Assembly (NCBI GenBank): GCA_013306675.1
Contig: JABLUY010000235.1
Span: 1-57,296 of the forward strand
Direction of reading: 5' to 3'
From: Thraustochytrium sp. TN22
Lineage: Eukaryota > Sar > Bigyra > Thraustochytrida > Thraustochytriidae
Length of the DNA stretch: 57,296 nucleotides
The notes under the pieces were generated by a model. It saw only the letters and a list, made by a program, of their open reading frames with translations, did no database searches and had not been told where the DNA came from. The number at the start of each line of letters is the position of its first letter. Position 1 is the stretch's first letter. Positions 2,538-39,904 of this stretch are shown here, piece by piece. A program made the position numbers and the translations under genes.

Positions 2538-2538
2538 G

Positions 2539-2582
<44 letters not shown>
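2538..2582 (+). repeat. (GCAG)n tract abutting the PEX11 start codon
   Basis: About eleven uninterrupted GCAG/GGCA units end directly at the ATG at 2583. It presumably lies in the 5' leader. The same motif, in sense orientation, precedes the glutaredoxin and calreticulin starts. Confidence 0.95.
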
Positions 2583-2586
<4 letters not shown>

Positions 2587-3405
2587 AGATGCCCAAGCTG
2601 TCGCCGGGGGCGCTCAACAAGCTGCACCGCTTCAATGAGATGCACATGAACGTGTAGGTTTGAAACTCAAGCGCGCGGCTGGCGATGGCAGGCGCAGCAG
2701 GGACCGGGGCGACTGACAGCGAGCGGGCGACGGCAACGCAGGCTGACGCTGGATAACCTCCTGCGGTTCGTGAGCTACACGGGCGTGGCGGTGGCGGACG
2801 TGATGACGGTGCTCAACGACGGCAAGCCGACGCCCAAGGCGCAGTTTCTGCTGGACTTCTTCATGAAGGTGTCTGGCGCGCGCTTCGTGAACCGGCTGTT
2901 CGGCATCCCCATGATGCTCGAGGCCATGCAGTACCCCGCCCAGGACCTGGCCTCGGCCATCATGAACTGGTCCATGGTGGCCTACTACCCGCTCGAGAAC
3001 GTCTGGTTCCTGAGCGTCCTGGAGCCCAACATCATCAAGATCAACTCGCCGCTCTGGAGCATGCTCTCGCTCCGCGCCTTCGCCATCTACGGCGTTGCCC
3101 TGGTCTACAAGCAGGTCACCGCCTCGGCCAAGCTCCTGGAGCAGATCAAGCAGCTCAAGGACTCCAAGACGGAGGACGGCGCCGACCGCGACGCTCAGGT
3201 CGCCGAGCTCAAGCGCGAGCGCCTCCTCACCAACCTCGGCGCCACCACGGCGTTTGGCGATCTCATTCTCGCCCTTCAGTATTCGCGCCCGACGCCCATC
3301 GTGTCGGACCGCGTCATTACCTTTATTGGCCTCTACGGCGGCCTCGTCAACCTCATCATCAAGTTCATGCGCTCGGCCCCCAAGCCCGAGAAGAAGTCGG
3401 CTTGA
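2583..3405 (+). CDS. PEX11: Peroxisomal membrane biogenesis protein PEX11
   Basis: Two exons, 2583-2653 and 2742-3405, with an 88-nt intron (GTAGGT...CGCAG). Without splicing, exon 1 stops at a TAG at 2655. The splice joins GT|G into a valine and keeps one frame of about 244 residues. The product begins MEMPKLSPGALNKLHRFNEM and then carries the PEX11-type segment LTLDNLLRFVSYTGVAVADV, a central amphipathic region, and a hydrophobic C-terminal segment (VITFIGLYGGLVNLIIKF) followed by a basic tail. PEX11 proteins sit in the peroxisomal membrane and drive its elongation before fission. Length and layout fit the family. A GCAG tract abuts the start and a minisatellite lies in the probable 3' UTR. 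Confidence 0.8.
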
Positions 3406-3416
3406 GAGTTTTCTAA

Positions 3417-3588
3417 GAATACATGAGCACCGTGTTGTGAGATGACTTGATTCTCCGCCGAATACATGAGCACCGTGTTGTGAGATGATTTGATTCTCCG
3501 CCGAATACATGTGCACCGTGTTGTGAGATGACTTGATTCTCCGCCGAATACATGAGCACCGTGTTGTGAGATGACTTGATTCTCCGCC
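3417..3588. repeat. 43-bp minisatellite, 4 copies, just after PEX11
   Basis: The unit start ACATG(A/T)GCACCG recurs at 3421, 3464, 3507 and 3550, a period of 43 bp with only one or two changes between copies. A degraded partial copy (GAGCAGCGTGTTGTGAG) follows near 3620. The array starts 11 bp after the PEX11 stop, so it is probably transcribed in the 3' UTR. Confidence 0.95.
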
Positions 3589-3989
3589 TCTTGTTCTCGC
3601 GCTCGGCGAAGCAACACTTGAGCAGCGTGTTGTGAGCAGCGTTGCGAAGCTTTGAGATGTGCGGTGACGACATAACACCGTCATGCAAGTTGGCAAGCTT
3701 GAGAGCATGCGAACCGTGACTCGTGATTGACAACCGCGCACGACGATGGACTTCTCAATCGCGGATTTCGGACTTGTACGAGCCTTGCCCGAGCCCAGCG
3801 CTTCGCGCGCATTGCTAGGTTTTCATCAGAACAAGCCTTGGCCGCCCTTTTCAGCCCCGCGGCGCGTCGTCCTCCCTTTTCAACCCCGCGGCGCCCCGCG
3901 GCGCCTCGTCCTCCCTTCTGAGCCCCACGACGCCTCGTCCTCCCTTCTCAGCAGACCTCGTCCTCGATCAAACTCACATCTTCTCCTTC
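3589..3989. other. Convergent spacer between PEX11 and the galactosyltransferase
   Basis: No gene seen. At about 3845-3955 there is a degenerate repeat of about 30-39 bp (CCCTTTTCAGCCCCGCGGCG-like, ending CTCGTCCT), three to four copies. Confidence 0.5.
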
Positions 3990-5498
3990 TTACTTGGGCT
4001 CAACATAAGGAGGATAGGCGAGCGCGTCGGCAGCCATGTTCTCGCGAAGACGGAGGATATAGTCCATGTACTCATACTGTGTGCTGCCAGGCGAGCCGGC
4101 GACATTGCGCTTCAACTCGAGGGTAGAACGAGCCGTGGTGTACAGGTAGGCTTCCATGCGCGCCATGCGGGAAACGTCCTTGTAGCCGTGGAATCCCCAT
4201 GCGCTCGCCGAACAGCAGTCGCGGCCCAAGCCGCGCGTCTTGGTCTTGCCGGTCCAGTACCAGTTCGTGGACGTGGGACTGCGGTGGAGACTGATGCTAC
4301 CAGGCAGACCGTAGGCGAGAACGTGCTCGCGCATGTTGTCCTCGAGCGCATCGTCGGCGTAGACGCCCATCTCTTGCAAACACTTGCTGGTGACGCGCTC
4401 CTCGGTGGCGCCGTCGCGGTCCACGCACTGGCCGTGCGAGTTCGGGAACTTGTCACGCGGGCCGTACTCGTGCTTGAGGTACTGCACGCGGGTGGCCAGG
4501 CGGATGATGGCCTCGTGGCTGAAGGCAGTCACAACGCCGGAAATGATGCGGTACGGCAGCTTCTCGATGATAATGGTGAAGCCAAAGTAGTGCGGGTCGC
4601 GGTGCGACCAGTTACGGCCGCGCACGAACTTGCGAAGGTTGCTAGGAATGAAGTAGGAGTCGTCGTCGATCTTGAGGAACCACTCGGCCTTGTCGATGTC
4701 GTGCAGGTAAACGTGGAGCCAGCTGCGCCAGACCTTTTCCCAAATGTGCCGGCACGGCCGGCCGTCGGAGCAAATGCCGTCCTTGCGCTTCATGGGCACC
4801 ACCACGAGCTCGGCACGCAGGTCCGTACCTTCCACACGGTACTCGGGCGGGATCTCCTGGTCCTCCTCGGGCGGGTCCACGAAGAACTTGAGCACATCGC
4901 AACGCGGGCCCCACGTGCGCAAGATGGTCTCGAACTTGTTCATGCGCGCCGGCTGGTACAAGGCCGGCACCATGCAGTACACGCGGTCGAGGCGACCCGT
5001 GACGAGCTGGTACGAGGCGGCGTCCTTGACCTCGATGCCGGCCCCCTCCACGAGCGCCGCCTCGCGGCTCATTTGCATAGTGCGCTCGCGCGCAAGCAGC
5101 TCCAAGGCGTTGGCATCCTGTCCAGCCAGCGCAGAGAGGTCGCCTAGGCCAGCCGCCGACGCCAGGCTACTCGCGAGGGCGCCTAGAAGTGAGGACGGCG
5201 CGAACGGCGTGGACGGCGTGGCCGCCGCCGTGGAACCCACCTCCGCGCCCTTGAGCGCCGGTACCCTCGTGGCGGTCGGATCCGGCGGCAGCGGGATCGT
5301 CTGCTGCGCCAGATCCTGCTGCGCGAGCGCCGTATCCTTCGCCGTCGCCGCCGCTGCCTCCGCCGCCGGGTCGTAGCGCAGCATGGCGAGGTTGGCGCGC
5401 AGGGAGCCGCCGAGGACCAGCACCACGCAGAGCGCAAAGGCCGCGATCGCCGCCTTGCGAGCCCGAGTCCCGGAGGGGCGCGCTCGCGCGGCCGCCAT
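3990..5498 (-). CDS. Core-1 (C1GALT1)-like beta-1,3-galactosyltransferase, GT31
   Basis: The product is about 502 residues from the ATG at 5498. It starts MAAARARPSG, followed by a basic flank and one hydrophobic segment (AAIAAFALCVVLVLGGSLRA), the layout of a Golgi type II membrane enzyme. A low-complexity Ala/Pro stem leads to the catalytic domain, which has RVYCMVPALY, ILRTWGPRCDVLKFFVD, WEKVWRSWLHVY and the metal-binding KIDDDSYF near residue 277. PHYFGFT and SGVVTAFSHEAI follow. These are Fringe/C1GALT motifs of family GT31, enzymes that move galactose from UDP-Gal to a GalNAc- or sugar-linked acceptor. The acceptor here is unknown. The frame is open further upstream, but that extension is Arg/Pro/Ser-rich and overlaps the divergent gene, so I reject it. 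Confidence 0.75.
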   Translation of the reverse strand: MAAARARPSGTRARKAAIAAFALCVVLVLGGSLRANLAMLRYDPAAEAAAATAKDTALAQQDLAQQTIPLPPDPTATRVPALKGAEVGSTAAATPSTPFAPSSLLGALASSLASAAGLGDLSALAGQDANALELLARERTMQMSREAALVEGAGIEVKDAASYQLVTGRLDRVYCMVPALYQPARMNKFETILRTWGPRCDVLKFFVDPPEEDQEIPPEYRVEGTDLRAELVVVPMKRKDGICSDGRPCRHIWEKVWRSWLHVYLHDIDKAEWFLKIDDDSYFIPSNLRKFVRGRNWSHRDPHYFGFTIIIEKLPYRIISGVVTAFSHEAIIRLATRVQYLKHEYGPRDKFPNSHGQCVDRDGATEERVTSKCLQEMGVYADDALEDNMREHVLAYGLPGSISLHRSPTSTNWYWTGKTKTRGLGRDCCSASAWGFHGYKDVSRMARMEAYLYTTARSTLELKRNVAGSPGSTQYEYMDYILRLRENMAADALAYPPYVEPK

Positions 5499-5805
5499 GG
5501 CGAGCGCGTGCGTACGGCAGCGCCGCCGCCGCCGCGCCAACGTTTTCGGTCTCCAGGTCGAGCGCCGCTGCGGTCGTTGCGAAGCCCCCCCGCCGCCGCA
5601 GCGAGGACTGCCGAGGACCACCGAGGACCTGGTGTGTCCGGGTTCGCGCTCGGGCGCGAACGAGTGCGCACCGCGCGAGCGCGCTGATGGTGATGGATGG
5701 AAAAATGCGATCAAACGCCGCATTGCGGACGCGTTGTGGCCGCCTGACAAAGCGCGCCCGTGGGCGGGCACGGCCCGCCTGGTGGCGTCGCCGCTCGATT
5801 CTAGC
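5499..5805. promoter_or_regulatory. Shared divergent promoter region
   Basis: About 307 bp separate the galactosyltransferase start (minus) from the preferred WD40 start (plus). Both transcripts must start in or near it. No clear TATA box is visible. The plus frame of the WD40 gene stays open through the whole interval. Confidence 0.5.
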
Positions 5806-8613
5806 ATGAGCATCTGCGCGCCGATCGAGCTCAAGGCGCAGCGCGTGGAGGATGTGCGCGAGCAGCGCCGATATGGCTTCCAGTTCGTGAGCGGTATGCA
5901 GCACGTGCACCGCGTGCGCGGTGCGTCGGGCGTCGTGGTGGCCGGTGGCGAGGGCGGCGGGGAGGCCGCCGCAGCACAGGTGCACGTGGCCTCGCTTGAC
6001 GCTCGGTCTCTGCGCGTGTGGCGTGGCGAGGCCGCCGCAAAGGCGGCTGGCGCCGCGACCCCCAAGGCAGACGAGCTGGCGCGCGAGCTGGCGGTGCAGG
6101 AGACGCGACGGCTCGTCTTCCCGGCGAACAAGTCCCACTTTTTGAGCGCCGTGCTGCACGTGCCGCAAAAGGGCGTCATCGTGGCGACGGCAGGCGATCT
6201 GGCGTGCAAATTTTACGACCTTCATACGCTGGAGCTCCTGGGGTCCGTGCCGCTGCAGCAGCGCGCCGTGTACGAGCTGCGGTTTCTGGCGCGCACGCAG
6301 GAGCTTGTGAGCGCCGGCGTAGACGGCGTGACGCTGTGGCAGTGGACAGAGCGCAAGACGGAGGTCTGGGACGCGCAAAGCCGGCTGTGGAAGTCGGTGA
6401 CCTTGCACGACCTCAAGGCGCGCTGCGTGCTGGCCGGCTCGCAGTGGGCGCGGCGCGTTGAGGTGGACCGGCCCGAGCGGCGGCTCTACGTATTGCAGGG
6501 GGACGACCTGTGCATCTTTGAGACGGCGACCGGGAGGCGCCTGCACCGACTCACGCAGCTGCACAAGCAGCCCGTGACGTGCTGCCTGGCGTACGAGCCA
6601 AGCCATTATTTGGTGACGGGCTGCGCGAGCGGCGAGGTCTGCGTGTGGTCGGACGCGCGCGACCACGCGCTCGTGCACACCTTTCGCGGGCACTCCAAGG
6701 CCATCACGGGGCTGGCGCATCACCCGGCGCGCAACGAGGCAGCCCTGCTGCTCTGCAGCTCGCTGGACGGCACGGTCAGTGTGCTGAGTCTGGACGCTCT
6801 GCAGGAGCGCTACCGCCTCATGCTGGGCGGGCCGTGCTCGGCGATGCAAGTGCTGGCGCCGCATAACCTGCTGCTGATCACCTTGGGCACCACCATGGAG
6901 CTGTGGCGCATCCAGCACCTGACGAGTCCATTCGCGCCGCAGCGTGCGCCGATTGAGCACCTGCACGCGCAGGACGGCGAGGTGCTGGTGCGCACGCGCG
7001 ATGGCAGCGTGCAGCTCCTGGACGCAACCTGCGGAGAGGCGCGCTCGCGCGTGGTGCCGGACAACAAGCTGGAGGCCGCGCGTCAAGTGGCGCTCTGGGC
7101 AGCACGGCGCCTCCTGTTCGTCTTGCTGGCGTCCAGCGAGGTCGCGGTCTATGACATGGCGCAGGACCCGGCGACGCTGCGCGCGCGTTGGCAGCACACC
7201 AAGCCGCACAAGGACGAGGTCCTTTCTATTGTTCTGGCGCCGCCGCTGCTCCTTGGCGGGTCGCGTCGCGGTGCGATTTTCATCTGGGACGCGGCCGGAC
7301 GCGGCGACCTTGTGCGGCAGCTGCCACCCATACACCCGGCGGGGGCGCCGGCGACGCAGCTGTGCCTGGCACGACCGCACCTGTTGCTCTCCGTGGCACC
7401 CTGCGAGGACAGGACACACGACGTGGTCTCGTTCTGGTCCCTTCCCAGCGCGACACACCTGGGCTCGCTTGAGCTGCGCGGCTGGTCCTCGGTCTCGTGC
7501 GTCGCCTGTAGCGACGAGCAGCCACTCGCTCTCCTTGGCTTGGCTTCTGGCGAAGCGCTGCTGGCTGACATCAACGCCCGCGCGCTCGTACCGCGCGTGT
7601 CGCAGGACCACGCGCACGAGGGCAGCTTGACGGCGGGCTACTTTGTCAATGCCCTGCGCGTGCTCCTCACGACCGGTTTGGATGGCAAACTCAAGGTGTG
7701 GGACGAGCGCAAGCGGCTCATTCGCGTTCTGGACGTCCACGCCGACCCAATCTTTGCCCTCACCGTTTTGGACCAAGGGCTCGGCGACGTGCTCATTGGC
7801 GATCGCCACGACGTTGTGCGCATCGCTGCGGACGATGTCTTCCCTGCTCGATTCCAGGCGCTGCGCAACGCGCATGACCTTGCGGAGGACTTGGACCAGC
7901 GTTCTGTGGCTTCGGACCTCTTCGAGGAAGTGGCGAGTGTCATCGTGCATGCGACGAGTAGCGGCGAGGAGGAGTCCGATGACGAGCTTCCGGCCATTTG
8001 CGAGGATGGAGAGCACGAGGAGGGCCGCGACGAGGACGAGGCCGCTTCGCATGGCGATTCGCACGAGCCACACTTTATTTCCGCGCATTCGCATGCGATG
8101 GAGCGCAAGGCTGCGGCACGCAACCTCGTGCCGCGGCCCATCACGTCGGGTCGAGAGCCGGTCGTCCACGATCTGGCGGCCTTGGAGCGTGCTGAGCAGG
8201 CTCAGCTGCAAGCAGCCGCAAGTATGCGAGCGGATAATTGCACGCTCGTACGTCTCGTCGACCTCAGCACCGGCAACTACCGTGTCGCCGCGAAGGCGTC
8301 GGCGCGTAGGCGAAAGAAGAAGCACGGGCGCAGGCGTGACTCCAAGAGAAGCCTTCGCAAGTTGCGGCCCAAGGTGCATGGCCTTCGCCCTCCGACTCTA
8401 GCCGATGGACGCGGCTCTCCGCTGCGTGCTGCTGCTTCCATGCACTCGCTGGCGAGCTCGTCCGCGTCCTCGTCCACTTGCACCAGTACCAGCACAAGCA
8501 GTACGACGACGCCGCACGCACCGCTTGAGCCCCGAAAGCCAAGGAGCACCGTGCGAAAGAACCCGCGCCTCGTGCATTTGCAAGCCATGATGGATGCTGC
8601 GTTGTCATCGTGA
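5806..8613 (+). CDS. WD40-repeat protein with acidic and basic C-terminal tail
   Basis: A 935-residue product from the ATG at 5806 (MSICAPIELK). Many WD40-like blades are visible, for example GVIVATAGDLACKFYD, LVTGCASGEVCVW, FRGHSKAITGLAHHP, LLLGGSRRGAIFIWD and LLTTGLDGKLKVWD, enough for at least two beta-propellers across about residues 30-680. The tail has an acidic stretch (about residues 725-765) and then a basic segment (RRRKKKHGRRR) and Ser/Thr runs. The blade pattern recalls large metazoan WD proteins of the WDR87/WDR97 kind, often flagellar, but that link is only an impression. The frame is open upstream to 5383, and an alternative start at 5497 would share a CCATGG with the divergent gene. 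Confidence 0.75.
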   Translation: MSICAPIELKAQRVEDVREQRRYGFQFVSGMQHVHRVRGASGVVVAGGEGGGEAAAAQVHVASLDARSLRVWRGEAAAKAAGAATPKADELARELAVQETRRLVFPANKSHFLSAVLHVPQKGVIVATAGDLACKFYDLHTLELLGSVPLQQRAVYELRFLARTQELVSAGVDGVTLWQWTERKTEVWDAQSRLWKSVTLHDLKARCVLAGSQWARRVEVDRPERRLYVLQGDDLCIFETATGRRLHRLTQLHKQPVTCCLAYEPSHYLVTGCASGEVCVWSDARDHALVHTFRGHSKAITGLAHHPARNEAALLLCSSLDGTVSVLSLDALQERYRLMLGGPCSAMQVLAPHNLLLITLGTTMELWRIQHLTSPFAPQRAPIEHLHAQDGEVLVRTRDGSVQLLDATCGEARSRVVPDNKLEAARQVALWAARRLLFVLLASSEVAVYDMAQDPATLRARWQHTKPHKDEVLSIVLAPPLLLGGSRRGAIFIWDAAGRGDLVRQLPPIHPAGAPATQLCLARPHLLLSVAPCEDRTHDVVSFWSLPSATHLGSLELRGWSSVSCVACSDEQPLALLGLASGEALLADINARALVPRVSQDHAHEGSLTAGYFVNALRVLLTTGLDGKLKVWDERKRLIRVLDVHADPIFALTVLDQGLGDVLIGDRHDVVRIAADDVFPARFQALRNAHDLAEDLDQRSVASDLFEEVASVIVHATSSGEEESDDELPAICEDGEHEEGRDEDEAASHGDSHEPHFISAHSHAMERKAAARNLVPRPITSGREPVVHDLAALERAEQAQLQAAASMRADNCTLVRLVDLSTGNYRVAAKASARRRKKKHGRRRDSKRSLRKLRPKVHGLRPPTLADGRGSPLRAAASMHSLASSSASSSTCTSTSTSSTTTPHAPLEPRKPRSTVRKNPRLVHLQAMMDAALSS

Positions 8614-8915
8614 CCGACGCAGACGACTTGGAGCCCCAAGCCCGCGGCTCCCTCGCGGCGATGTACTTTCTTCACGTCCAAATCCTTTCGCGCCCTCTTT
8701 TTATCCTTCTTCACCTTTTTTAAGCGACCACTTTCGTTCTCGGCTTTGCAAGAACCTGCAGTGTGCTCTGAGTTCGTCAGAATTCGCCGCCGAGCGCTGG
8801 CCGTGCCGTGCCGTGCCCGCGGTGCCGTGCCGGTGCCGCCCCGTGCCGCGCCTCATCAGACTCAAGACACTGTCATGTAACTTCAGAGCGGCAAGGCAAC
8901 CCCAAGCACAAGCCC
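8614..8915. other. Spacer between two plus-strand genes
   Basis: No gene seen. A pyrimidine-rich stretch at about 8660-8725 (CTTTTTATCC, CCTTTTTTAAG) is followed by GCCGT pentamer repeats at about 8799-8850, which probably fall in the leader of the Tudor-HNH gene. Confidence 0.5.
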
Positions 8916-9860: not shown

Positions 9861-9934
9861 GAGTCAGGAACAGAAGAAAAGTACAAATTCCATGTGTCGT
9901 GTGTGAGCGTGATATGTCATCTGGGTTCATTCAG

Positions 9935-10913: not shown

Positions 10914-10956
<43 letters not shown>

Positions 10957-11056: not shown

Positions 11057-11193
11057 GCACCTGCTGAGCAGCAGTAGCTCGGGCTGCTGCTGCTGGGAGC
11101 TCGCACGCTCGTAGCTGAGGCGGAGCTCGGCGATGCGGCGGCAGGCCGCTGGCGCGGGCCGACCGCCGTCCACCACCACCCCTCGCGCAGCGC

Positions 11194-11227
<34 letters not shown>

Positions 11228-12444: not shown

Positions 12445-14541
12445 TTAGGTTTGCTTCTGCTTTTGCACGCGGTAGAGGCGCGCGTAGGCGCCGTTCTTGG
12501 CGAGGAGGTCGTCGTGCGTGCCCATCTCGACGATACGGCCCTTGTCGAGCACGACAATGACGTCAGCGTTCCGAATGGTGGTGAGACGGTGAGCGATGAC
12601 AATAGTGGTGCGCTTCTTCTCCTGGAGCAGGCGGTCGAGGGCCGCCTGGACGACGCGCTCAGACTCTGAGTCGAGCGCGGAGGTGGCCTCGTCGAGGATG
12701 AGCGTGGCAGGGTCCTGGATGATGGCGCGCGCGATGGCGATGCGCTGTTTCTGGCCGCCGGAGAGCAGGGCACCGCGCTCGCCGAGCTCGGTGTCGTAGC
12801 CGTCGGGGAAGGCTTGAATGAAGTCGTGCGCATTGGCAGCCTTGGCGGCGCGCTGGACGTCCTCCATGGTGGCGTCGGGGCGACCATACATGATGTTCTC
12901 CTTGATGGTGGTGCTAAAGAGCGTGGGCTCCTGCGAGACGACGCCGACGATGCGGTGGAGCGCCTCCGGGTGGAGGTCGCGCACGTCAACGCCGTCGATG
13001 GTGACCTGACCGCCGGCGACATCGTAAAAGCGCTTGAGCAGCGCGCCGATGGTGCTTTTGCCGGAGCCGCTGGCGCCGACGAGCGCGACAACCTGGCCGG
13101 TGTGCACGTCGAGGCTGAAGTGGTCGAGCACGGTGACAGACGGGCGCGACGGGTAGGCAAAGGAGACGTCGCGGAAGGCGACATTGCCATGGACCGAGGC
13201 CGGGTCCGGGAAGAGGCCCTTGCCACCAGCGGCGGTGTTGACAAGCGGGACGTCCTGGATGGCGTCGAAGATGTGCTGCGAGGAGCGAAAGGCCTTGACG
13301 AGCTGCGCCGACACGATGGAGAGGCGCGACATGGAGCGCTCGAGAATCTGCACCTGCGTGACGATGGCCGCAATGCCGCCGCGCGTGAGGTCGCCGTTGG
13401 CGACGAGCTGGCCGCCGTAGCCACAAATGAGCAGCGTGATGAGGTTGATGCCGAGGTGCAACATGGAGTAGAAAGAGCCGGCGGTCAGCGCCATGGTGCG
13501 CTTGAGGTCGGAAACGCGTGTGAGCTCCTCGCTGTAGCGCTGCAGCTCGCGGTCCTCGGCGCCAAAGGCGCGCACCGTGTGAATGGCGCTGAGCGCCTCG
13601 TTGGCGATGCCCGTGGCGCGGTTGCTGGCCCTGCGCAGGCGGTCCGACAGGCCGCGCAGCATGACGCCCAGCACGTGCGCGGCCGCAGAGACGACGGGCA
13701 AAATGGAGAACATGGCGACGGCCAGCTGCGGCGACGCCATGTACAGGTACACGCTGCCGGAGATGATGGAGGTGACGCCCTCGACGCCGCGCGAGAAGGC
13801 CGTGCGCACCGAGGTCTGCAGCGCGCCCACGTCCTGCGTAAGCTGATGCGTGATCTCGCCCGAGCGCGACTCGTCGAACTTCTCGATGTCTTTGCGCAGC
13901 GTCGCGGCATAGAACTCTACGCGCAGCCGCCGGCCCAGCTCGGTCGTTGCCACGGCCAGCGCGAAGGATGACACGAATGAGAGTGCCGCCTGCGAGAGGA
14001 AGAGGCCCAGCAGCTGCTTGAGCGGCTCCACGAGCGTGTTGAAGTCCTTGGACCCCATCGCGTCAAAGAGCTGGCCCACCACGCGGCTTTGCGCGCTCGC
14101 GGCCAGTGAGCTCAGCACCGACGCCATGGCCGCCAGCATGTAGTACCACTTGTCCTTGGCCATGAGGCCCAGGAGCAATGCCCAGCGGTCGCGGTCGGAA
14201 GACTTCGAAGACGGAGAGGAGGAAGCGGAGGACGACGACGACGTCGCGGAGGATTCCTCCGCGCGCTTGGCTACGCGCACGCGGGGCGTGTCGAGACGCT
14301 GGAGCTGCTTGGCCGGCGGCGCTTCGCAGTGCGCCACGGCTGCGCCGCCCGTCGCCGCGAGCGCCAGCAGGCCGCCAGCCCGCGCCCAGACGGCAGGCGA
14401 AGCCCATGGCGCGGGCGCCGTCGCCGCCTTGGTCGCCACGGTCGACGCGCGGCACGAGGTCGACGAGAGCCGCGGCAGCAGTCGCAGTCGCGGCTGCAGC
14501 AGCGCCGCGCGCGCCGCGCGCGCCTGAGCCGCGCTCAGCAT
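12445..14541 (-). CDS. Mitochondrial ABCB-type half-transporter
   Basis: A 698-residue product starting MLSAAQARAARAALLQPRLR, an Arg/Ala-rich, acid-free N-terminus typical of a mitochondrial presequence. One ABC transmembrane domain (about residues 130-440, with EFYAATLRKDIEKFDESRSG) is followed by one nucleotide-binding domain: Walker A GASGSGKST near 488, signature LLSGGQKQR near 591, Walker B TLILDEATSALD near 610 and the switch His in IAHRL near 648. This is the ABCB8/ABCB10/Mdl1 half-transporter layout, which acts as a dimer in the mitochondrial inner membrane. The exact subfamily and substrate (peptide, haem precursor or other) cannot be decided by eye. A GCAA tract in sense orientation lies 37 nt upstream of the ATG. 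Confidence 0.85.
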   Translation of the reverse strand: MLSAAQARAARAALLQPRLRLLPRLSSTSCRASTVATKAATAPAPWASPAVWARAGGLLALAATGGAAVAHCEAPPAKQLQRLDTPRVRVAKRAEESSATSSSSSASSSPSSKSSDRDRWALLLGLMAKDKWYYMLAAMASVLSSLAASAQSRVVGQLFDAMGSKDFNTLVEPLKQLLGLFLSQAALSFVSSFALAVATTELGRRLRVEFYAATLRKDIEKFDESRSGEITHQLTQDVGALQTSVRTAFSRGVEGVTSIISGSVYLYMASPQLAVAMFSILPVVSAAAHVLGVMLRGLSDRLRRASNRATGIANEALSAIHTVRAFGAEDRELQRYSEELTRVSDLKRTMALTAGSFYSMLHLGINLITLLICGYGGQLVANGDLTRGGIAAIVTQVQILERSMSRLSIVSAQLVKAFRSSQHIFDAIQDVPLVNTAAGGKGLFPDPASVHGNVAFRDVSFAYPSRPSVTVLDHFSLDVHTGQVVALVGASGSGKSTIGALLKRFYDVAGGQVTIDGVDVRDLHPEALHRIVGVVSQEPTLFSTTIKENIMYGRPDATMEDVQRAAKAANAHDFIQAFPDGYDTELGERGALLSGGQKQRIAIARAIIQDPATLILDEATSALDSESERVVQAALDRLLQEKKRTTIVIAHRLTTIRNADVIVVLDKGRIVEMGTHDDLLAKNGAYARLYRVQKQKQT

Positions 14542-14954
14542 GCCGCCGCCGGGGTCGGAGCACGAGTGAAAAGGTCTGCTGCTTGCTTGCTTGCTTGCTT
14601 GCTTGCGTGCGAGCAGCGCGCACGTCGCGCTTGCGCTGCGCTGTGCTTGCGATCCGGTCACGGGCGTAATGCGCAACATCAGCCCCGGCAACAGCGCGCA
14701 ATAACGTTACCCTCCGAGTCTTCTTTCGTTTTGGCAGCCATGGTAGCATCCCCAGACTTCCAACCTTGAAATAGTTACGGTGTTGGAGAAAATCATCGAC
14801 TGTGAACGTCTTGGTGGCATTTTACTAACTATCGCGCGCCGTACAGGATGTGGAACTTCCAGTGCAGCATTGACAGCAACAACAACAACAACAAATACTA
14901 CTTCGTTTTTCTTCTCTCATGGTCCGTCTTTTCTCTCTTGGCTGTCATTTTGTA
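14542..14954. other. Spacer upstream of the ABC transporter
   Basis: Holds the sense-strand (GCAA)n tract at 14579-14610 and, towards the kinase stop, an (AAC)n run at about 14877-14895. No gene seen. Confidence 0.6.
14579..14610 (-). repeat. (GCAA)n tract 37 nt upstream of the ABC transporter ATG
   Basis: About seven units, reading GCAA on the transcribed minus strand. It matches the tracts upstream of the SMR and gamma-glutamyl phosphate reductase genes. Confidence 0.9.
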
Positions 14955-18443: not shown

Positions 18444-18444
18444 G

Positions 18445-18479
<35 letters not shown>
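18444..18479 (+). repeat. (GCAG)n tract 7 nt upstream of the glutaredoxin ATG
   Basis: About nine GCAG/GGCA units in sense orientation, followed by CAGGAGG and the ATG at 18487. Confidence 0.95.
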
Positions 18480-18486
18480 CAGGAGG

Positions 18487-19280
18487 ATGCAGCGCGCGGC
18501 GGCGATGGCGATGGCGCGCGGCGCGCGCGGCGGCCTGGCGCGGCGCGCGGGCGGCAGCATGCTCGTGGCGCGCGGCGCAGGCGCGACCGCGGCGCGCTGC
18601 GGCGCCTGGCGCGCGCTCAGCGGCAAGATCTCCGGCGAGGACTCGCACTCGGACTTCGCGCCGCAGTCCAAGATTAAGTCCTCCGGCGGCGACGGTGGCG
18701 ACGGCGAGGATGACGTGCTCGAGTTTCTCGGCAAGGTACGTGTCGTGTCGCGTCGTGCGGCCTTGCATCGCCACAGCAGCGAGAAGAAAACAACCTGAGA
18801 AAAGGGAACAAAGCGGGCAGGCATGCATGACTAACCCCTGACGAATCGTTCGCGCGCGCGCACGCAGGCCGTCAAGGAGCACGACGTGCTTCTGTTCATG
18901 AAGGGAACGCCCAACAACCCGCAGTGCGGCTTCAGCGCCAAGGTTGTCGGCATCCTCCAGCAGGAGGGCATCGACTTTAGCAGCGCCGACGTGCTCTCCT
19001 CTGCGGAGGTCCGCCAGGGCATCAAGACCTTCTCCAACTGGCCCACCATCCCCCAGCTCTACGTTGGCGGCGAGTTTGTCGGTGGCTGCGACATCATCTG
19101 TACGTGGGAAATTTAGCAACGAATGCGACGCGCGTGCGAAATCCAGCAACGAAGAAGATGTACTAACCTCGAGACGCCTGCTATTGTACCAACGCAGCGG
19201 ACATGCACGGCTCTGGCGAGCTCACGGAGATGCTTGCCCCCTACAAGGCGAAGCAGGATGAGGCTGACAAGACCAAGTGA
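18487..19280 (+). CDS. GRX5: Monothiol CGFS glutaredoxin, mitochondrial Grx5 type
   Basis: Three exons, 18487-18735, 18868-19099 and 19198-19280, give 187 residues. Both introns begin GTACGTG and end CGCAG; intron 2 carries an exact TACTAAC near 19161 and intron 1 a GACTAAC near 18828. The N-terminus ([20 protein letters not shown]) is a mitochondrial-type presequence. The core has [20 protein letters not shown] with the single active-site Cys of a CGFS glutaredoxin, then [20 protein letters not shown] and the exon-3 part DMHGSGEL that completes the glutathione site. Grx5 proteins carry a glutathione-bound 2Fe-2S cluster from the mitochondrial scaffold to later assembly steps. Splicing is needed for the SGEL end, so the gene model is well supported. 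Confidence 0.9.
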
Positions 19281-19990
19281 TTGACTGACTGACAGCCAGC
19301 AGATGAAGGAGAAGGACAGCCAGAAGATGAAGGAGAAGAAACAATTTGACGTCACGATCTAATTTGTTTCCACACGATGGATTGCACTTGTCTAAGTCTG
19401 AAGCCTACTTGTTTTCACAAGCTGTCTCTGGCGCTGTCCCTGGCGCTCTCCCTGGCGCTGTCTCTGGCGCTGTCTCTAGCGCTGCCTCTGGCGCTGCCTC
19501 TGGCGCTGCCTCTGGCGCTGCCTCTGGCGCTGCCTCTGGCGCTGCCTCTGGCGCTGCCTCTGGCGCTGCCTCTGGCGTTGCCTCTGGCGCTGCCTGCCTT
19601 CTACTTGTTTCCACCCGATTCGGACGCGTTGTTTCCACCCGATTCGAACGCCCAGTCAGCTTGTTTTGGGAAAAATAAGAGAAGAGCAGCCCAGTTATTA
19701 ACTGCGACTGTGTTGCTCAGGCCCAAAGAAACAAAGAGGACGTGTAGCTGCAAAACAAGCTGGAGCGCGGCTGAACGCAGTAGTCTCCAGCCCAACCAAA
19801 CGCACTTACCATCGAGCAAAGATGTCACTGGGCGCCAGCTTCATCACACGACACTGAGCTCGAGCTCAAGCTGGACCTCAAGCTGGAGCGCGAGCAAAAG
19901 CCTGAGAACAGGCTCGAGCTGAAGCGTAGCATGAGCTGACGCAGCTTTTGGCCCCGTTGGCCCAAAAAGATGCAAAAGAAAAAAAAACGC
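19281..19990. other. Spacer with minisatellite downstream of glutaredoxin
   Basis: Contains the 12-bp array at 19426-19593, a doubled GTTTCCACCCGATTCG (about 19609 and 19638) and a CTCAAGCTGGA repeat near 19865-19888. ORFs through it encode repeat peptides only (Ala-Ser-Gly-Ala or Leu-Pro-Leu-Ala), so I do not call a gene. Confidence 0.6.
19426..19593. repeat. 12-bp minisatellite, 14 copies
   Basis: CTCTGGCGCTGC is repeated 14 times without indels. The first four or five units are more diverged (CCCTGGCGCTGT and similar). It lies about 145 bp after the glutaredoxin stop. Confidence 0.95.
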
Positions 19991-20086
19991 AAGTGCTGGC
20001 GGGGATCGAACCCGCGGCTTCTGGATACCTAAAAGGGAGACTATCCCGTTTCGAAGTCCAGCAGACTGCCACTGTCTCACAGCACC
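19991..20086 (-). tRNA. tRNA-Arg (anticodon TCG) with 24-nt intron
   Basis: Read on the minus strand from 20086, a full cloverleaf can be drawn: acceptor GGTGCTG/CAGCACT (six Watson-Crick pairs and one G-T), D-arm AGAC-AGTGGCA-GTCT, anticodon stem CTGGA/TCCAG, and T-arm GCGGG-TTCGATC-CCCGC. The two anticodon-stem halves are separated by a loop that makes sense only if 24 nt are removed between positions 37 and 38, the canonical nuclear intron site. The spliced loop is CTTCGAA, so U33 is followed by TCG, which reads CGA arginine codons. The mature length is 72 nt. The G-T first pair and T73 are slightly unusual for tRNA-Arg, so isotype confidence is lower than gene confidence. Part of the gene's A box and the B-box-like GGTTCGATCC are present. 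Confidence 0.75.
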
Positions 20087-20269
20087 CCTTCTGGGGCTAG
20101 TGGGGCCTTCGCATTTGACGGTCAGGCCAGCGGCGCTCCAGCCGTCGCCCGCCGCGCGCTGCGCTGCGCTGCGCTGCGCTGCCCGCGCTCCGCTCCGCTG
20201 CGCTGCATAGGCTGCGCTCCGCGGCCGCCAGCCGGAGCCGCGCCGCCTGTGCCGCGCCTTGCAGCAGCA

Positions 20270-20304: not shown

Positions 20305-20622
20305 GCGCGTGACTCGGAGCGGCGCGCGCCGGCGGCGGCCCGGCGACGCAAAAAGGGTTGCGCAAAAGACACAGTCAAAGTGGAGGAGCCAGGCTGGAAG
20401 GGGAGCCGGCCGCGCTCGTACTGGCCGAGCTAAGTTGGTTACAGTGAAATTAGTCCCGTCCAAGTGGTCGCGGTGACAGTAAGGCTAGGTATTTTCAAAG
20501 TTCTCGAAAACAACGGCGGCGCGCGGGACGGCGTGGATCGATGAACCAAACAGATTTCGAATCGAGCAGGCAAGCAATTGGTCGATCAATCGCCGCGCGC
20601 GGTCGGTCGGCGGTCGCTCCCT

Positions 20623-20649
<27 letters not shown>
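20087..20649. other. Spacer between the tRNA and calreticulin genes
   Basis: No gene. It holds a GCTGC pentamer run at about 20157-20182, a GGGCGC hexamer run at about 20271-20303 and the GCAG tract before the calreticulin ATG. Confidence 0.6.
20623..20649 (+). repeat. (GCAG)n tract abutting the calreticulin start codon
   Basis: Six to seven AGGC units end directly at the ATG at 20650, the same arrangement as at PEX11. Confidence 0.95.
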
Positions 20650-24456: not shown

Positions 24457-24752
24457 ATGACACGTCGGCCGGCGTTGAGCGCCAGCGCAGGCGAGTCTAG
24501 GACGACGTCGACGTCGACCACGGCCTGCACGACCATAACCACGATAAGAACAACAAGAAGGATGACGACAAGAACGACGACAAGAAGGACTTCAAGAACG
24601 ACGCCAAGCACGACGACGAGAACCACCGCTCAGGCTCTGCATCCTCGTCGAGTCCGGGTCGCACGGCAGTAGCACTTTCGACAGCTGCTGATGGCGGCTC
24701 AAGCTGGCGGCTCGCTCGTTCGGCGTGCAGTCTGAAACGGTGTACCTCTTCA
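24457..24752 (+). repeat. Left terminal direct repeat (296 bp)
   Basis: Identical to 26677-26972 except for one base. Its centre is a lysine/asparagine/aspartate-type low-complexity segment (GACGACAAGAAGG). Confidence 0.95.
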
Positions 24753-25028
24753 TAGGCCATCTCAACCTTAAGTGTACCACCAAAACGGGCGGAAAATCGA
24801 ATTATCGATTCTCGTGCGATGGCTTTCTGCTCGCCTGGGCGTGCGTAGGGAAGCCGACCCGGCCAGGATCTCGCCCACCAAGTGGCTTGGACGTAGCTGG
24901 CTTGGTCGTTGAGAACGAGCGACTTGAGCATGCTGGTGACGGGCTCGAGCACGGTGTCGAGCAGGCCGGATTAGAGGCGCGCGACGGCGGCGCCACGCGC
25001 TGGAGGCGCTAGGGGCTCCCCTGGGAGC

Positions 25029-26676: not shown

Positions 26677-26972
26677 ATGACACGTCGGCCGGCGTTGAGC
26701 GCCAGCGCAGGCGAGTCTAGGACGACGTCGACGTCGACCACGGCCTGCACGACCATAACCACGATAAGAACAACAAGAAGGATGACGACAAGAAGGACGA
26801 CAAGAAGGACTTCAAGAACGACGCCAAGCACGACGACGAGAACCACCGCTCAGGCTCTGCATCCTCGTCGAGTCCGGGTCGCACGGCAGTAGCACTTTCG
26901 ACAGCTGCTGATGGCGGCTCAAGCTGGCGGCTCGCTCGTTCGGCGTGCAGTCTGAAACGGTGTACCTCTTCA
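26677..26972 (+). repeat. Right terminal direct repeat (296 bp)
   Basis: Partner of 24457-24752. It ends 229 bp before the SMR gene ATG, so it may overlap that gene's promoter. Confidence 0.95.
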
Positions 26973-27113
26973 GAGATTTCCAGCGCGCCGCGTGCAGTGG
27001 CGGCTCTGACACCAGTCACGGTGCGAGCTCAGGCTGTGGGTCTCTCGGCCACGGACCCAAACGAGGCGACTGGGTCCGTGCAAACCAACAAACAACAATC
27101 ACAATCACGCTCA

Positions 27114-27139
27114 CAAGCAAGCAAGCAAGCAAGCAAGCC
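27114..27139 (+). repeat. (GCAA)n tract 62 nt upstream of the SMR gene ATG
   Basis: Six CAAG units in sense orientation. Confidence 0.95.
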
Positions 27140-27201
27140 TTGCAGCGGACTCGGCGCGGTGGACGGCAGGCAGCGCAAGCGGCAGGCGCGCGTGCGGCGA
27201 C

Positions 27202-31282: not shown

Positions 31283-31681
31283 CGCGCCGCGCCAGGCCAC
31301 GCCGACCCGCGCCGACCCGCAGCGCAGCGCCCGCCGCCGCGCGCGCCCGAGGTTCTTCTTTGCGGAGCTGCCCTGCTGCCTTCTTGCGCCTCTGCCCGCC
31401 TGGCCCACCTCGCTCTGGCTGTCTGTTGTGTTGCCCTAGGCCTACTACGAGGAGAGCGCGCGAGAGAAGGTAGGCTGGGCTGGCTGGCGCCCGTGCCTGG
31501 CGTACGCTGCCAGCCAGGAGCACCGCGCCGTCGCCGGCGAGCGCAAGCGGCAGCAGCAGCAGCTTCGAGTTCATCCATCTCTTCGTGTTCATCTTTTATC
31601 TATACCGGCAAGGAGGCGAGGTCTCGGCGCCGCCGCCCTCGGCGGCGCCGGGAGGCAGCAGGAAGGCAGGAAGGGAGGGGT
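31283..31681. other. Spacer between the hydrolase and MED21 genes
   Basis: GC-rich, no gene seen. It must hold the hydrolase promoter and the MED21 3' end. Confidence 0.5.
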
Positions 31682-33810: not shown

Positions 33811-33832
33811 CGTGGCCTTTAAAATGTTTATA

Positions 33833-33838
33833 AATAAA
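33833..33838 (+). promoter_or_regulatory. AATAAA polyadenylation signal
   Basis: Lies 22 nt after the E2 stop codon in an A/T-rich patch (TTTAAAATGTTTATAAATAAAA), the only clear canonical signal I found in the window. Confidence 0.6.
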
Positions 33839-34133
33839 ACTGAAGCAAGGGACCGGGCCATGTCTGTCCTTTACTTAGACCCGCCACTTGGTGCCCAGCA
33901 CCTTTGGCTGCTCACGCACTTGCCGGAACGACCGTGCTCCTTTCGATCTCGAGTCCTCTTCCACTGAGCCCCGCGTCGCTGTGACGCAAGCCTGGCCTCT
34001 TGCCTGCGAAGCCGTGGGTCCAGGCTGCAGTAGCAGGTTCGGCTGCCGGACACATTTTTCAACGGACAATGTAGGCCCCGGCTGGTGATCAGAGAGTGCA
34101 GGAGGCGAACAAAATTGAAAGAGCGCAGCCGGC
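33839..34133. other. Spacer between the E2 and membrane-protein genes
   Basis: About 300 bp; nothing beyond the flanking 3' end and promoter is recognised. Confidence 0.5.
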
Positions 34134-35573: not shown

Positions 35574-35790
35574 TCATTATGTACAGTTCTTTCCCTTGGC
35601 TGGCAGGCCTTTGCGGTCCATTTGTCGCCATTTCCCGCCATTTGCTGCCATTTGCTACACACAATTCCGTTCCAGTACACACATGAAGCAAACTTTTGCC
35701 AGGATGGTTCGCTTTTCTTGGCCAAGCCAAGTCAAGCACCAGGATCATTGTCGGCGAACAAAGCCTGAGCGCTCGCCAGCGCGCACTGGA

Positions 35791-36624
35791 ATGGAGGGGG
35801 CGAGCCTGGAGGAGCTGGAGCGGCGCGAGGCGGAGCGGCGCGCCGCGGCACAGGCCGAGGTCGATGATCGCAAGGCGCGCGTCGCCGAGGCGCGCATGTC
35901 GGTGAACCAAGGCGACGACGACTCCGAGGCGGAGCGCCGCGAGCGCGAGGTTGCGCACAGCCTGCTCGCGGCGCTCGACGACCCGTGCCCCTTCAAGGCG
36001 GTGCGTGCGGATAACCTGGACGTGCTGCGTGCGCATCTGCTGGTCTACGGCACGGCGCACGTCTTGGCATTGCGCAGTGGTGCCCCTGAGGATGGCGGCC
36101 GCACGCTGCTGCACATGGCGGCCTTTTGGGGCTCCACGGGCTGCCTTGACTTGCTCCTCGACGTCGGCGCCAGTCTGGATGCTATCGACTCCACGGCGTC
36201 TCGCATCACGCCGCTCCTCGAGGCTGCCCGCGCTGGACACCTCCAAGTTTGCAAACGCCTCTTGCAAGAAGGCGCCCGCGTCGACTGTCAGGACGCCGCT
36301 GGCGACACGATCTTCCATTGGTGCGCGCGCAAGGGCCGTGGTAGCATGCTGCGGCACCTCCTGCACATGGCGGAACGAGCGAGCACGGGCAGCACGCGCG
36401 AGGTTCTGGGCATTACCAACCTTCGGGGTCGCCGAGCCATTGACCTCGCGGCTAACCCGAGTGTACTCTATCATATTCAGCAGGAGACTGAGGCCATTTC
36501 CCGCACGCGTGCAAGCGCAAGCATCAAGTTGCACAAGGGCTTGGCCAAGGCTCGCATCATTGGCGACAAGGTGGAGAATGCGCATCAGCTCAAGGTTCAG
36601 AAACGACGATACCACAAGAAGTAA
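35791..36624 (+). CDS. Ankyrin-repeat protein
   Basis: A 277-residue product from the ATG at 35791 (MEGASLEELE), preceded in frame by a divergent, non-protein-like stretch. Residues 1-55 form a charged coiled coil. Ankyrin repeats follow: GGRTLLHMAAFWGSTGCLDL, ITPLLEAARAGHLQVCKRLL and GDTIFHWCARKGRGSMLRHL, then NLRGRRAIDLAANPSVLYHI. The C-terminus is basic (VQKRRYHKK). Ankyrin repeats are protein-binding modules; no specific partner is suggested. It is 218 bp after the membrane-protein gene on the same strand. Confidence 0.7.
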   Translation: MEGASLEELERREAERRAAAQAEVDDRKARVAEARMSVNQGDDDSEAERREREVAHSLLAALDDPCPFKAVRADNLDVLRAHLLVYGTAHVLALRSGAPEDGGRTLLHMAAFWGSTGCLDLLLDVGASLDAIDSTASRITPLLEAARAGHLQVCKRLLQEGARVDCQDAAGDTIFHWCARKGRGSMLRHLLHMAERASTGSTREVLGITNLRGRRAIDLAANPSVLYHIQQETEAISRTRASASIKLHKGLAKARIIGDKVENAHQLKVQKRRYHKK

Positions 36625-37001
36625 TTTTCATTGCCCTTGCCAGTGGGTTGAGACGTACCTACCACCAAAACAGATTCTCATTCTCGCGACGAGATGAGGG
36701 CCAGCGGCCAATTGCTCAGCGGGGGAGTGGTATGTTATTAATTTTAGCCATTTTTTTCGCCTTTGGTGACGATTTTTGTCCTCGCCAGTCGTCTTTCGAA
36801 ATACTTCTTACATTGTCACAAAGATTGTAAAGATTCACAACACGCTCGCTGGCTTCCCCGCTTGATTGCTGGCTAGCTCGCTGGCTGGCTCGCTCTCTCA
36901 CTTCATCAATGCACTGATTGTGAGCGGGGACGGTGAACGCCGCTATCACGGGATACGCACCCAACCTCAGGACCCAGGACGCAGCACGCAGGGCACAGGA
37001 C
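36625..37001. other. Convergent AT-richer spacer
   Basis: Lower GC than the rest, with ATTAATTTTAGCC and CATTTTTTTCGCC near 36735-36763 and CTGGCTAGCTCGC repeats near 36870-36895. Probably two 3' UTRs. Confidence 0.5.
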
Positions 37002-38933
37002 TCAGGACTCGAAGAGAGCCTGCCAAGCCTCGTAGTTGATCTTCTTGGACATGCGCTTGTTGGTCTCGGGAATGGTGCGCTGCGCCGAGTTGTCAAGGCC
37101 TGCCTCGCCCTCGCGCCCGGCCTTGGCCTTGCGCTTGCGCTTGCGCTTCACCTTGCCGTCTAGTCGGTCCTGCCGCTCCTTCTCGAGGTATGCGCGGTTC
37201 TGCACCTGCCAGAGCACCTTCTTCATGCGCGACTCGTTCGGCTTGAGCAGGAGCGCGTCCACATCGTCGCGAAAGAGTTCGTCATCCTCTGCTTCGGTGT
37301 TGGGCACGGCCGCTTCACTCGCGTCCGCAACCGGGACTAGGGCGCCGCCCGCGGCCTCGACACCGGTAATCTCCTCCTCCTTCTCTTCTTCGTCCTCTTC
37401 CTCGCCCTCCCCTTCGTCTTCGCGCTCCTTTTCCTCCTGTTCCTCCTCTTCATCTTCACCCTCTTCATCGTCTTCCTCATCCGGCTTGTCCGCGGCCTGG
37501 TTCTCTGGCTTGTCCGCGGCCTCGGGCTGCTCCTGCGCGGCCTCCAGCTGCTCCTGCTCCGCCTGCGTCGCCCCGGCCGCCTGCGTCGCCTGCGTGTCCT
37601 GCTCGGCAAGCATCCGCAGGCGCTCCTGCTCCTCCTGCTCCTCGAAGCTGCGCAGGCTCTGCTCAAGTTCGCGCTCCAGAGACGAGTACAGCAGCTTTTG
37701 CGCACGGGCGCGCTCCGCCTGAATCTCGGCACGAGTCCGCTTGCGCTTCGTGCGAGCACGCCCGTTCCCGTCTTGAGCGTCGCCCGCCCCCTCCTCCTCG
37801 TCCATGTCCTCCTCGGGCGGCGGCGGCGGGACGTCGTCGTCGTCGTCGTCGTCGTCTCCGTCGGAGCCGTCGTCGTCACGCGTCGACGACGCCTCAGCCA
37901 GAAGCGCCAGCGGCACGGTGTCATCGCGGTCGGTCACAGCAAGGCGCGCCTCGTCCTCAAGCTGCTGCTGGGCCTCGGCCTCGCGGCGCCGGTTGCGCGT
38001 GAAGGACGGCGGGTTCGCCTCCTCCGGCAGCTCAACCTGTAGAAACTCCTCCACCGTCAGGCTGCCCGAGGGCGTCGCCTCGAACTCCACGAGCCGCTTA
38101 CGCAGCGTCTCCTCGCAGATCTTCATCACGTTCACCACCTCGCGCTGCGTGCGGTGGAAGCCGTGCATGCGCGCCGCGATGATGAGCGCCGCGCCGCACA
38201 CGCCCGACGGCCGCCGGCCAGTCTGGATCCAGTCGCGCTTCATGCGCGCCACGAGCTTGTGCGCCGTCTTGGCGACCTCGTGCGTCTTGTCGTCGAACTC
38301 GAGCTTGGCGGCGAACCGGTCAATGTAGTGCGCCGGGTCGATGGCCGGCAGCTGCAGGTTGAGCAGCCGGCGGAACTTGAGGAAGCAGTTGCCCAGCACG
38401 TACACGTTCGTCTGGAGCACGTCCGAGAAGTCGATGAGCAGGTGGGGCGCCTGCCGCTGGCGGCATACAATGTACAGACACGCCGCCACCACCGTCGTCG
38501 TCTTGCGGCCGTGCACGAAGTTGCGCTGCACGGCCGACAGGAAGAGTCGGTGCGCCGCGTCCACGAAGTGGTTCAGCTGCAGCGCCGCCGCCAGCTGCTG
38601 GATGCGCTTCTTGCCGTTGGCGATGGTCACCTCGCGCGACTCGCGGCTGTACCCGACGCCGCCGCTGGACGAGAACCTGTACGGCGTCGTGCACATGTTG
38701 CTCACGAACTGCCCGTTCATCGACCGCGACCCATCCTGGTTGTCCGTGAACGAGACCGACAGGTCGAACGAGCTCTCCTCGATCACCGTGCCGCAGTCCG
38801 CGCAGAAGATGCCCTCGCTCGTCGCCTCCGTGTTGAACGACCCGCACCGGCTCGACGGGCACTGCCGCCGCCCGCCGCCGCCGCCGCCGCCCGCGGCCCC
38901 GCCCGCGCCCGCGCCCGCGCCCGCCGCGCTCAT
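37002..38933 (-). CDS. BRF1: TFIIIB subunit BRF1 (TFIIB-related factor)
   Basis: A 643-residue product from the ATG at 38933. A Gly/Ala leader precedes a zinc ribbon with Cys25, Cys30, Cys44 and Cys47 (QCPSSRCGSF...IFCADCGTV). Two cyclin folds follow, at about 90-290 (RIQQLAAALQLNHFVDAAHR, RKTTTVVAACLYIVCRQRQA, RPSGVCGAALIIAARMHGF). The C-terminal half has long acidic and Gln/Glu runs and then the Brf homology segment (DVDALLLKPNESRMKKVLWQ, QNRAYLEKERQDR) and a basic patch (KRKRKRKAK). BRF1 joins TBP and BDP1 in TFIIIB and recruits RNA polymerase III to tRNA and 5S genes. The C-terminal homology makes this BRF1 and not TFIIB. The frame is open upstream to 39884, but that part is low complexity. 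Confidence 0.88.
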   Translation of the reverse strand: MSAAGAGAGAGGAAGGGGGGGRRQCPSSRCGSFNTEATSEGIFCADCGTVIEESSFDLSVSFTDNQDGSRSMNGQFVSNMCTTPYRFSSSGGVGYSRESREVTIANGKKRIQQLAAALQLNHFVDAAHRLFLSAVQRNFVHGRKTTTVVAACLYIVCRQRQAPHLLIDFSDVLQTNVYVLGNCFLKFRRLLNLQLPAIDPAHYIDRFAAKLEFDDKTHEVAKTAHKLVARMKRDWIQTGRRPSGVCGAALIIAARMHGFHRTQREVVNVMKICEETLRKRLVEFEATPSGSLTVEEFLQVELPEEANPPSFTRNRRREAEAQQQLEDEARLAVTDRDDTVPLALLAEASSTRDDDGSDGDDDDDDDDVPPPPPEEDMDEEEGAGDAQDGNGRARTKRKRTRAEIQAERARAQKLLYSSLERELEQSLRSFEEQEEQERLRMLAEQDTQATQAAGATQAEQEQLEAAQEQPEAADKPENQAADKPDEEDDEEGEDEEEEQEEKEREDEGEGEEEDEEEKEEEITGVEAAGGALVPVADASEAAVPNTEAEDDELFRDDVDALLLKPNESRMKKVLWQVQNRAYLEKERQDRLDGKVKRKRKRKAKAGREGEAGLDNSAQRTIPETNKRMSKKINYEAWQALFES

Positions 38934-38976
38934 CCTCGCGCGCAGCCCAAGCCCGTCTGCCGCCGCTCTTCCCCCG

Positions 38977-39015
<39 letters not shown>

Positions 39016-39760
39016 CTCCTCGTCCTGCCTCCACTCGTCGTCCAGCCAGCGCGAGCTGGCGCCCAGGGACGAGCCCGGCGCGCCGCGCGCCCGCCCTGCG
39101 CCGCGCGGAGGACGAGGACGAGGACCCGCTCGCGCCCCGCCCGGGCGCCCGTGCGGCGCTTTGCGCGCGCGACGAGGCTTTGACTGCGATTTACATTTAC
39201 GTTTACATTTACATTCGTGCGAGGTGATACGCGCGAGTTCACGGACAGCACGACCTCGGAACCGAGCTTCAGGGGCCGAGCTGGGCCCCTGGAACGCAAT
39301 GCAACGCAACGCAACGCGACGAGCAGCACGCGAGGGCCGCGCCATGCGCCAAGCCTTGGCCGGCCGCCTACAGCGCGGAGGCGGAGGCACTGCATTCGGC
39401 GAGAGAACCCCGCGCAGCGCCGCGGAGTGCAGCGTAGTCGTGCGCCCCGAGCAAAGTTCCTCGCGCTCGCCTTCGAAGAACTCCTCGCTCGTCGCGGTCC
39501 GGCGGTCCTCCGCGCGGCGCAGGCAGACGGCAGACGGCAGACGCGGCGCTTGCTTCTCTCCGCTCCTCCCCGGCCCGAGCTCGCGAGCGAAAGGCTCGAG
39601 TCGAGCTGCGCTTGAAGGTCAAGTCGAAGTCGCTGCAGGAGTAGTAGTGGTGCGTCGTGGTCGACGAGGTCGTCATCGTGGACCTCGATCCGGCCGGGAC
39701 GGCCAAGGCGCGGCGCGCGCAGAGGCGAGCGGAGGCGCGCGGCAGAGCGCGAAGCGGCGC

Positions 39761-39803
<43 letters not shown>

Positions 39804-39904
39804 GGAGCCGAGCGGCGGCGGCGCGGCGGATTCGGGTGGCCAGGACCGCGGCGGCGAAGCGGCAGGCAAGCAAGCAAGCAGCAAGGCAAAGCGCCGAGAG
39901 CGCG
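38934..39904. promoter_or_regulatory. Divergent promoter region BRF1 / gamma-glutamyl phosphate reductase
   Basis: Nearly 1 kb. It has a (TC)17 tract at 38979-39012, which is GA on the BRF1 sense strand; TTTACATTTACGTTTACATT near 39190-39211; GCAAC pentamers near 39300-39316; a GGC tract at about 39762-39801; and a GCAA tract at 39864-39889. No gene is seen. Confidence 0.5.
39864..39889 (+). repeat. (GCAA)n tract 15 nt upstream of the reductase ATG
   Basis: AGGCAAGCAAGCAAGCAGCA, then AGGCAA, in sense orientation; slightly interrupted. Confidence 0.85.

Follow-up and report, generated by a model that had tools for sequence, protein, structure and literature searches.

Promoter microsatellites of the human genome are reported to cluster at gene starts, with a preference of some G-rich motifs for the coding strand, at values of 59% for CCG/CGG and 60% for CCCG/CGGG (PMC3566118). 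In plants, 5′ noncoding microsatellites of the CT/GA and CTT/GAA types are described as enriched upstream of coding sequences (PMC1781443), and for CAGG repeats, such as the CAGG/CCTG repeats of myotonic dystrophy type 2, the formation of hairpins and slipped strands has been reported (PMC10849350). Here we analyse the GCAG/GCAA (GCAR) tetranucleotide tracts found upstream of start codons in a stretch of DNA from Thraustochytrium sp. TN22 of 57,296 bases and 66% GC, referred to below as the window, which corresponds to positions 1-57296 of contig C150 in the source genome. The data make it likely that these tracts are ordinary tetranucleotide slippage microsatellites located in T-poor, G-rich leaders in which antisense copies are disfavoured, with orientation as a by-product; the one-way orientation mostly follows from base composition.

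The GCAG/GCAA leader tracts are a new instance of a known microsatellite type. As in the human promoter set, repeats are found at gene starts and some G-rich motifs prefer the coding strand; the differences lie in the GCAG/GCAA motif, in the stronger bias observed here near start-like ATGs, and in the use of start codons, not transcription starts, as reference points for distances and bias (PMC3566118). With the plant repeats, for which conserved copies and possible regulatory functions are described, they share the upstream 5′ noncoding site but not the motifs (PMC1781443). The (GCAG)n array is the (CAGG)n array of myotonic dystrophy type 2 in another phase, whereas the disease tracts comprise at least 75 units and are intronic, and those described here have 5-11 units and lie upstream of starts (PMC10849350). 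No work on GCAG/GCAA leader repeats was found among the top-ranked literature matches, in a search that left subscription papers mostly outside.

Runs of at least five GCAR units number exactly six in the window, and each lies in sense orientation, 0-62 nt ahead of a plausible ATG. Their coordinates and strands, the distances to the ATG (read from the sequence for the five plus-strand genes) and the 6/6 sense orientation, which includes the minus-strand ABC transporter gene, agree with a first-pass annotation of this DNA. The tracts are as follows:

2538..2582, plus strand: (GCAG)11 G tract, abutting ATG 2583 of PEX11 (0 nt)
14579..14606, minus strand: (GCAA)6 GCAG tract, 37 nt ahead of the start codon (ATG 14541) of an ABC transporter gene (Pfam match)
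18444..18479, plus strand: (GCAG)9 tract, 7 nt ahead of the start codon (ATG 18487) of a glutaredoxin gene (Pfam match)
20623..20649, plus strand: AG(GCAG)6 G tract, abutting ATG 20650 of the calreticulin gene (0 nt; Pfam match)
27114..27139, plus strand: (GCAA)5 tract that includes partial units, 62 nt ahead of the start codon (ATG 27202) of a gene whose Smr match is below threshold
39862..39889, plus strand: GCAG/GCAA tract with interruptions, 15 nt ahead of the start codon (ATG 39905) of an aldehyde-dehydrogenase-family gene (Pfam match)

All six are perfect or near-perfect tandem arrays with a unit within the 1-6 nt range, and all are noncoding and upstream of a start codon. They fit the class of genic 5′-leader microsatellites in array structure, in noncoding upstream site and in a strand bias that follows composition. 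For a noncoding site of the window taken at random, on a random strand, the probability of lying in sense orientation no more than 100 nt from a called start is 0.043, so that six sense tracts out of six near starts are beyond chance within the window. Runs of three GCAR units are limited to two, at 20566-20577 (plus strand) and 2198-2209 (minus strand).

Genes were predicted with a simple caller based on codon usage and trained on the window plus 20 sampled 10-kb stretches, which placed starts at 14541, 18487, 20650, 27202 and 39905. The first exon of PEX11 (ATG 2583), whose short length puts it beyond the caller, was identified by eye, with an intron extending to about 2741; its second exon matches Pfam PEX11 above the curated cut-off. 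The products of four other tract genes, namely the ABC transporter, glutaredoxin, calreticulin and the aldehyde-dehydrogenase-family protein, are also above their Pfam curated cut-offs, with the glutaredoxin domain situated in the second exon (18835-19113). The name gamma-glutamyl phosphate reductase, also given in the first-pass annotation, would fit the protein starting at ATG 39905. The Smr match of the gene starting at ATG 27202 reached 22.6 bits, below the curated cut-off of 25.7.

The composition of leaders was determined upstream of 77 called starts, 18 from the window and 59 from the 20 sampled stretches. The 100-200 nt that precede called starts are T-poor and G-rich on the sense strand, and both GCAG and GCAA are more frequent there than their complements. 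The T content of the 77 leaders decreased from 15.6% at −200 to −161 down to 8.7% at −40 to −1, and was 10.5% in the 59 leaders of the sampled stretches. The number of ATGs in the 77 leaders was 50 at −200 to −100 vs 14 at −100 to 0, and the five letter permutations dropped less. The start rule of the caller favours upstream in-frame ATGs, and hence thins in-frame ATGs by construction; out-of-frame ATGs alone fell from 40 to 11, a drop that start choice does not favour. In the last 100 nt of the 59 leaders outside the window, GCAG was found 130 times vs 35 for CTGC, and the GCAG:CTGC counts per 50-nt bin, from −200 towards the ATG, were 38:30, 36:19, 70:20 and 56:13. The density of GCAG in leaders was 22.0 per kb vs 5.6 for GACG, and the rarity of the composition-matched reversed repeat in the genome, with 22 matches vs 4,869 for (GCAG)3, accords with these densities of seed words. 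(GCAR)5 gave 2,953 matches vs 6 for its reversed control. Run starts with a C or T before them numbered 211. Genome pattern counts, here and below, correspond to overlapping matches in a single assembly of 37.9 Mb and 453 contigs.

The sense bias is not special to the GCAR repeat. Sense:antisense positions in leaders were 140:28 for CGG x3, 43:2 for AGC x3, 23:0 for AGG x3, 34:14 for AGCG x2 and 60:12 for CGCGG x2, these counts being positions that in some cases come from just 2 or 3 leaders; CTTT and CCTCT leaned the opposite way, in one or two leaders each. Pairs of GCAR units in the last 100 nt of the 59 leaders outside the window were five in sense and none in antisense orientation, and Markov simulation of the same leaders produced 2.6, 4.0 and 4.0 pairs (orders 1, 2 and 3), so that tandem GCAR is not enriched over leader composition at the pair level.

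Across the genome, the strand bias of GCAG was evident near start-like ATGs. The strict form, (GCAG)3-N0-30-RNNATGG, gave 229 matches vs 41 for the antisense form. Overlapping matches were merged by hand into distinct places among the matches listed, hence the ranges C1-C156 and C1-C86 of the contigs to which these counts refer. The strict form yielded 45 sense vs 17 antisense places in C1-C156 with the window excluded (p=0.0005), and 36 vs 15 when the nearest gap, read by hand, was at least 4 nt (p=0.005). The RNNATGG context matches 36 of the 77 called starts vs 16.6% of all ATGs, and a purine at −3, which is typical of genuine starts, is present in 69 of the 77 called starts and in 55.5% of all ATGs; this context slightly favours the tract when the ATG abuts it, and was picked after the result with the loose ATG form had been seen. 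The loose form, (GCAG)4-N0-30-ATG, gave 407 matches vs 217 for its antisense form and, among the matches listed, 51 vs 27 distinct places in C1-C86 (p=0.009). A GTA control, which covers the loose form alone, gave 141 vs 99 matches and 20 vs 13 distinct places in the same contigs among the matches listed, and the lean with ATG was not significantly stronger than that with GTA (p=0.67). Thus, the loose test alone does not tie the tracts to starts, and the stricter test was used because the control showed a sense lean of its own. Pure (GCAA)4 with the loose ATG showed no bias, with 108 sense vs 112 antisense matches.

The average noncoding density of RNNATGG, 1.63 per kb, would lead to about 246 chance matches for the 4,869 matches of (GCAG)3. 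The sense value is therefore at par with expectation, and the antisense value falls about six-fold short of it; missing antisense cases thus contribute to the asymmetry as much as surplus sense ones. With regard to the genome-wide expectation derived from the first-pass annotation, the strand bias near start-like ATGs held for GCAG, and the counts did not show an absolute enrichment near starts. The hand count of the first 100 listed (GCAG)3 matches contained 45 distinct tracts, from which the genome total of GCAG runs of at least three units can be put, very roughly, at 2,200; as the 229 strict sense matches overlap and include chance ATGs, only a minority of the runs have a start-like ATG at a distance of up to about 35 nt.

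The scarcity of antisense matches near start-like ATGs is what would be observed if selection acted on transcript orientation, with the CAGG sense tolerated in RNA, the CCUG sense harmful for expression, and antisense tracts purged from transcribed leaders. This proposal has a precedent in a yeast URA3 intron, where (CAGG)100 is reported to have allowed expression and (CCTG)100 to have impaired it (PMC10849350). That result, however, corresponds to about 100 units within an intron, and the tracts studied here have 5-11 units; moreover, repeats other than GCAR are biased in the same direction, so that a cost specific to CCUG is unneeded, and pure GCAA is unbiased with the loose ATG. We regard this explanation as unlikely, and a cost of the CCUG sense as a possible extra cause that the present data do not require.

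Long runs outside the window were examined with their flanks in 14 cases of at least five units, all of them located on contigs C1-C6, which come first in the (GCAR)5 match list. Relative to the nearer gene, eight were sense and five antisense, and one was found without a called gene; the 8:5 ratio is not significant alone (p=0.58). Within 300 nt upstream of a start there were six sense and two antisense runs (p=0.29), and distances to genes ranged from 1 to over 1000 nt. No fixed position or orientation was thus found among these 14 runs, and the first-pass annotation's view of the tracts as always sense and absent away from starts does not extend to the genome, where orientation is a bias and not a law. 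Five runs of four units from the same set were excluded from these counts: they were sense at 96 and 267 nt, sense at 891 nt, 3′ of a gene on the same strand, and without a called gene. Three of the antisense runs, the GCAG tracts of L013, L023 and L028 (about 1501-1528 in each), lie 38-76 nt past the 3′ end of an opposite-strand coding segment; reading CTGC in the sense of that gene, they may be a mirror image of the 5′ pattern.

The position of some of the runs outside the window, 150-450 nt upstream of a start, would suit a promoter motif recognised at the DNA level, either around the transcription start or further upstream. Nevertheless, the GCAG bias peaks over the 100 nt closest to the ATG and is about 1.3:1 at −200 to −150, a distribution that fits leaders better, and antisense copies are also found upstream of starts (L014, L022). 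On this balance we consider a promoter role very improbable indeed.

A functional 5′-leader element, in which GCAR repeats bind a factor or hold the leader open for initiation at the next ATG, draws on the sense bias near start-like ATGs, on the three window tracts located at most 7 nt from the ATG, and on the frequency of purines at −3 in the loose form, which among the matches listed was 40/51 for sense vs 27/55 for antisense ATGs, some of these purines coming from the abutting tracts themselves. On the other hand, only 1 of the 59 leaders outside the window has at least three units, distances range between 0 and several hundred nt, antisense and 3′-side copies exist, and the six host genes, as inferred from their Pfam matches, have no evident common pathway. 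A dedicated leader or promoter element, as the first-pass annotation had suggested, is in fact unsupported by these data: in leaders outside the window runs are rare and GCAR pairs show no excess over leader composition, and T-free, purine-rich repeats of other kinds are oriented in the same way. A leader element of this kind is very unlikely in our opinion.

In the slippage explanation that we favour, chance GCARGCAR seeds present in T-poor, G-rich leaders would expand by strand slippage, probably aided by CAGG hairpins and slipped strands, since the formation of such structures fits with expansion by slippage (PMC10849350). The resulting tracts may persist in leaders, as a 4-nt repeat inside genes would break the frame, and a T-free leader tract would be tolerated in that it brings no upstream ATG. 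In the GCAGG-ATG or GCAAG-ATG phase, a tract joined directly to the start codon would leave an A at −3. Antisense copies (CTGC/TTGC) would carry a T in each unit, contrary to leader composition, and selection may remove them. Leader composition and purifying selection would in this way lead to a one-way orientation without a dedicated signal. A more active role can be imagined for short GCAG repeats immediately ahead of the ATG, where they would offer the initiating ribosome a portable, T-free landing strip and tune expression through their repeat number, with slippage supplying the A at −3 and the ATG-free leader together; we give this idea a very low probability.

Several points weigh against the slippage explanation. 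The window is tract-rich and atypical of the sample: its leaders contain, within 200 nt, at least two GCAR units in 6/18 cases, at least three in 4/18 and at least five in 4/18, whereas the values for the leaders outside the window are 7/59, 1/59 and 0/59, respectively, and this difference in runs of at least five units is not predicted by composition. Likewise, the 20 sampled stretches contain no run of at least five units and just two runs of four units, both in L034. The Markov comparison leaves out the window; when it is included, GCAR pairs rise to 28 vs simulated means of 4.1-8.6, owing to its long tracts. In addition, the 59-leader sample is small and drawn from 20 stretches, the analysis covers a single assembly, and slippage is here an inferred step, not an observed one.

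Other roles for the tracts were considered and rejected. Predicted RNA folds of the six leaders gave no common signal, with z-scores from −2.3 to +2.2, and a structured RNA element was discarded since the leaders were not consistently better folded than shuffles. The tract as a coding N-terminal extension was checked for calreticulin alone of the six genes: the frame is open upstream, but there is no in-frame ATG between the preceding stop and 20650. A role as 5′-leader splice acceptor (CAG|G), raised by the apparent CAG at the end of the PEX11 intron, was also set aside, the leaders being T-poor. Scans of viral and prokaryote contigs with calreticulin found no relative.

Additional features were observed in the window. 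Directly after the PEX11 stop codon, at 3417-3588, a 43-nt unit is repeated four times in tandem with 96% matches, and at 19421-19595, about 300 nt past the glutaredoxin exon, a 12-nt unit is present in 14.6 copies with 94% matches. A tRNA-Phe (GAA) gene of 99 nt, with a probable intron, is located at 19989-20087 (minus strand) between the glutaredoxin and calreticulin genes. A 299-nt direct repeat at 24457-24755 and 26677-26975, with copies 2,220 nt apart, 99% identical and each containing a 12-nt tandem array, is probably a recent local duplication. A C-type lectin domain protein is encoded at the window end (55319-57295, plus strand).

Altogether, leader composition and slippage can account for a six-out-of-six orientation pattern on one contig. 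The T-poor, ATG-depleted leaders are a useful cue for locating start codons in the source genome and, if selection against the CCUG sense contributes, this genome would be a natural test of the repeat orientations that transcripts tolerate.

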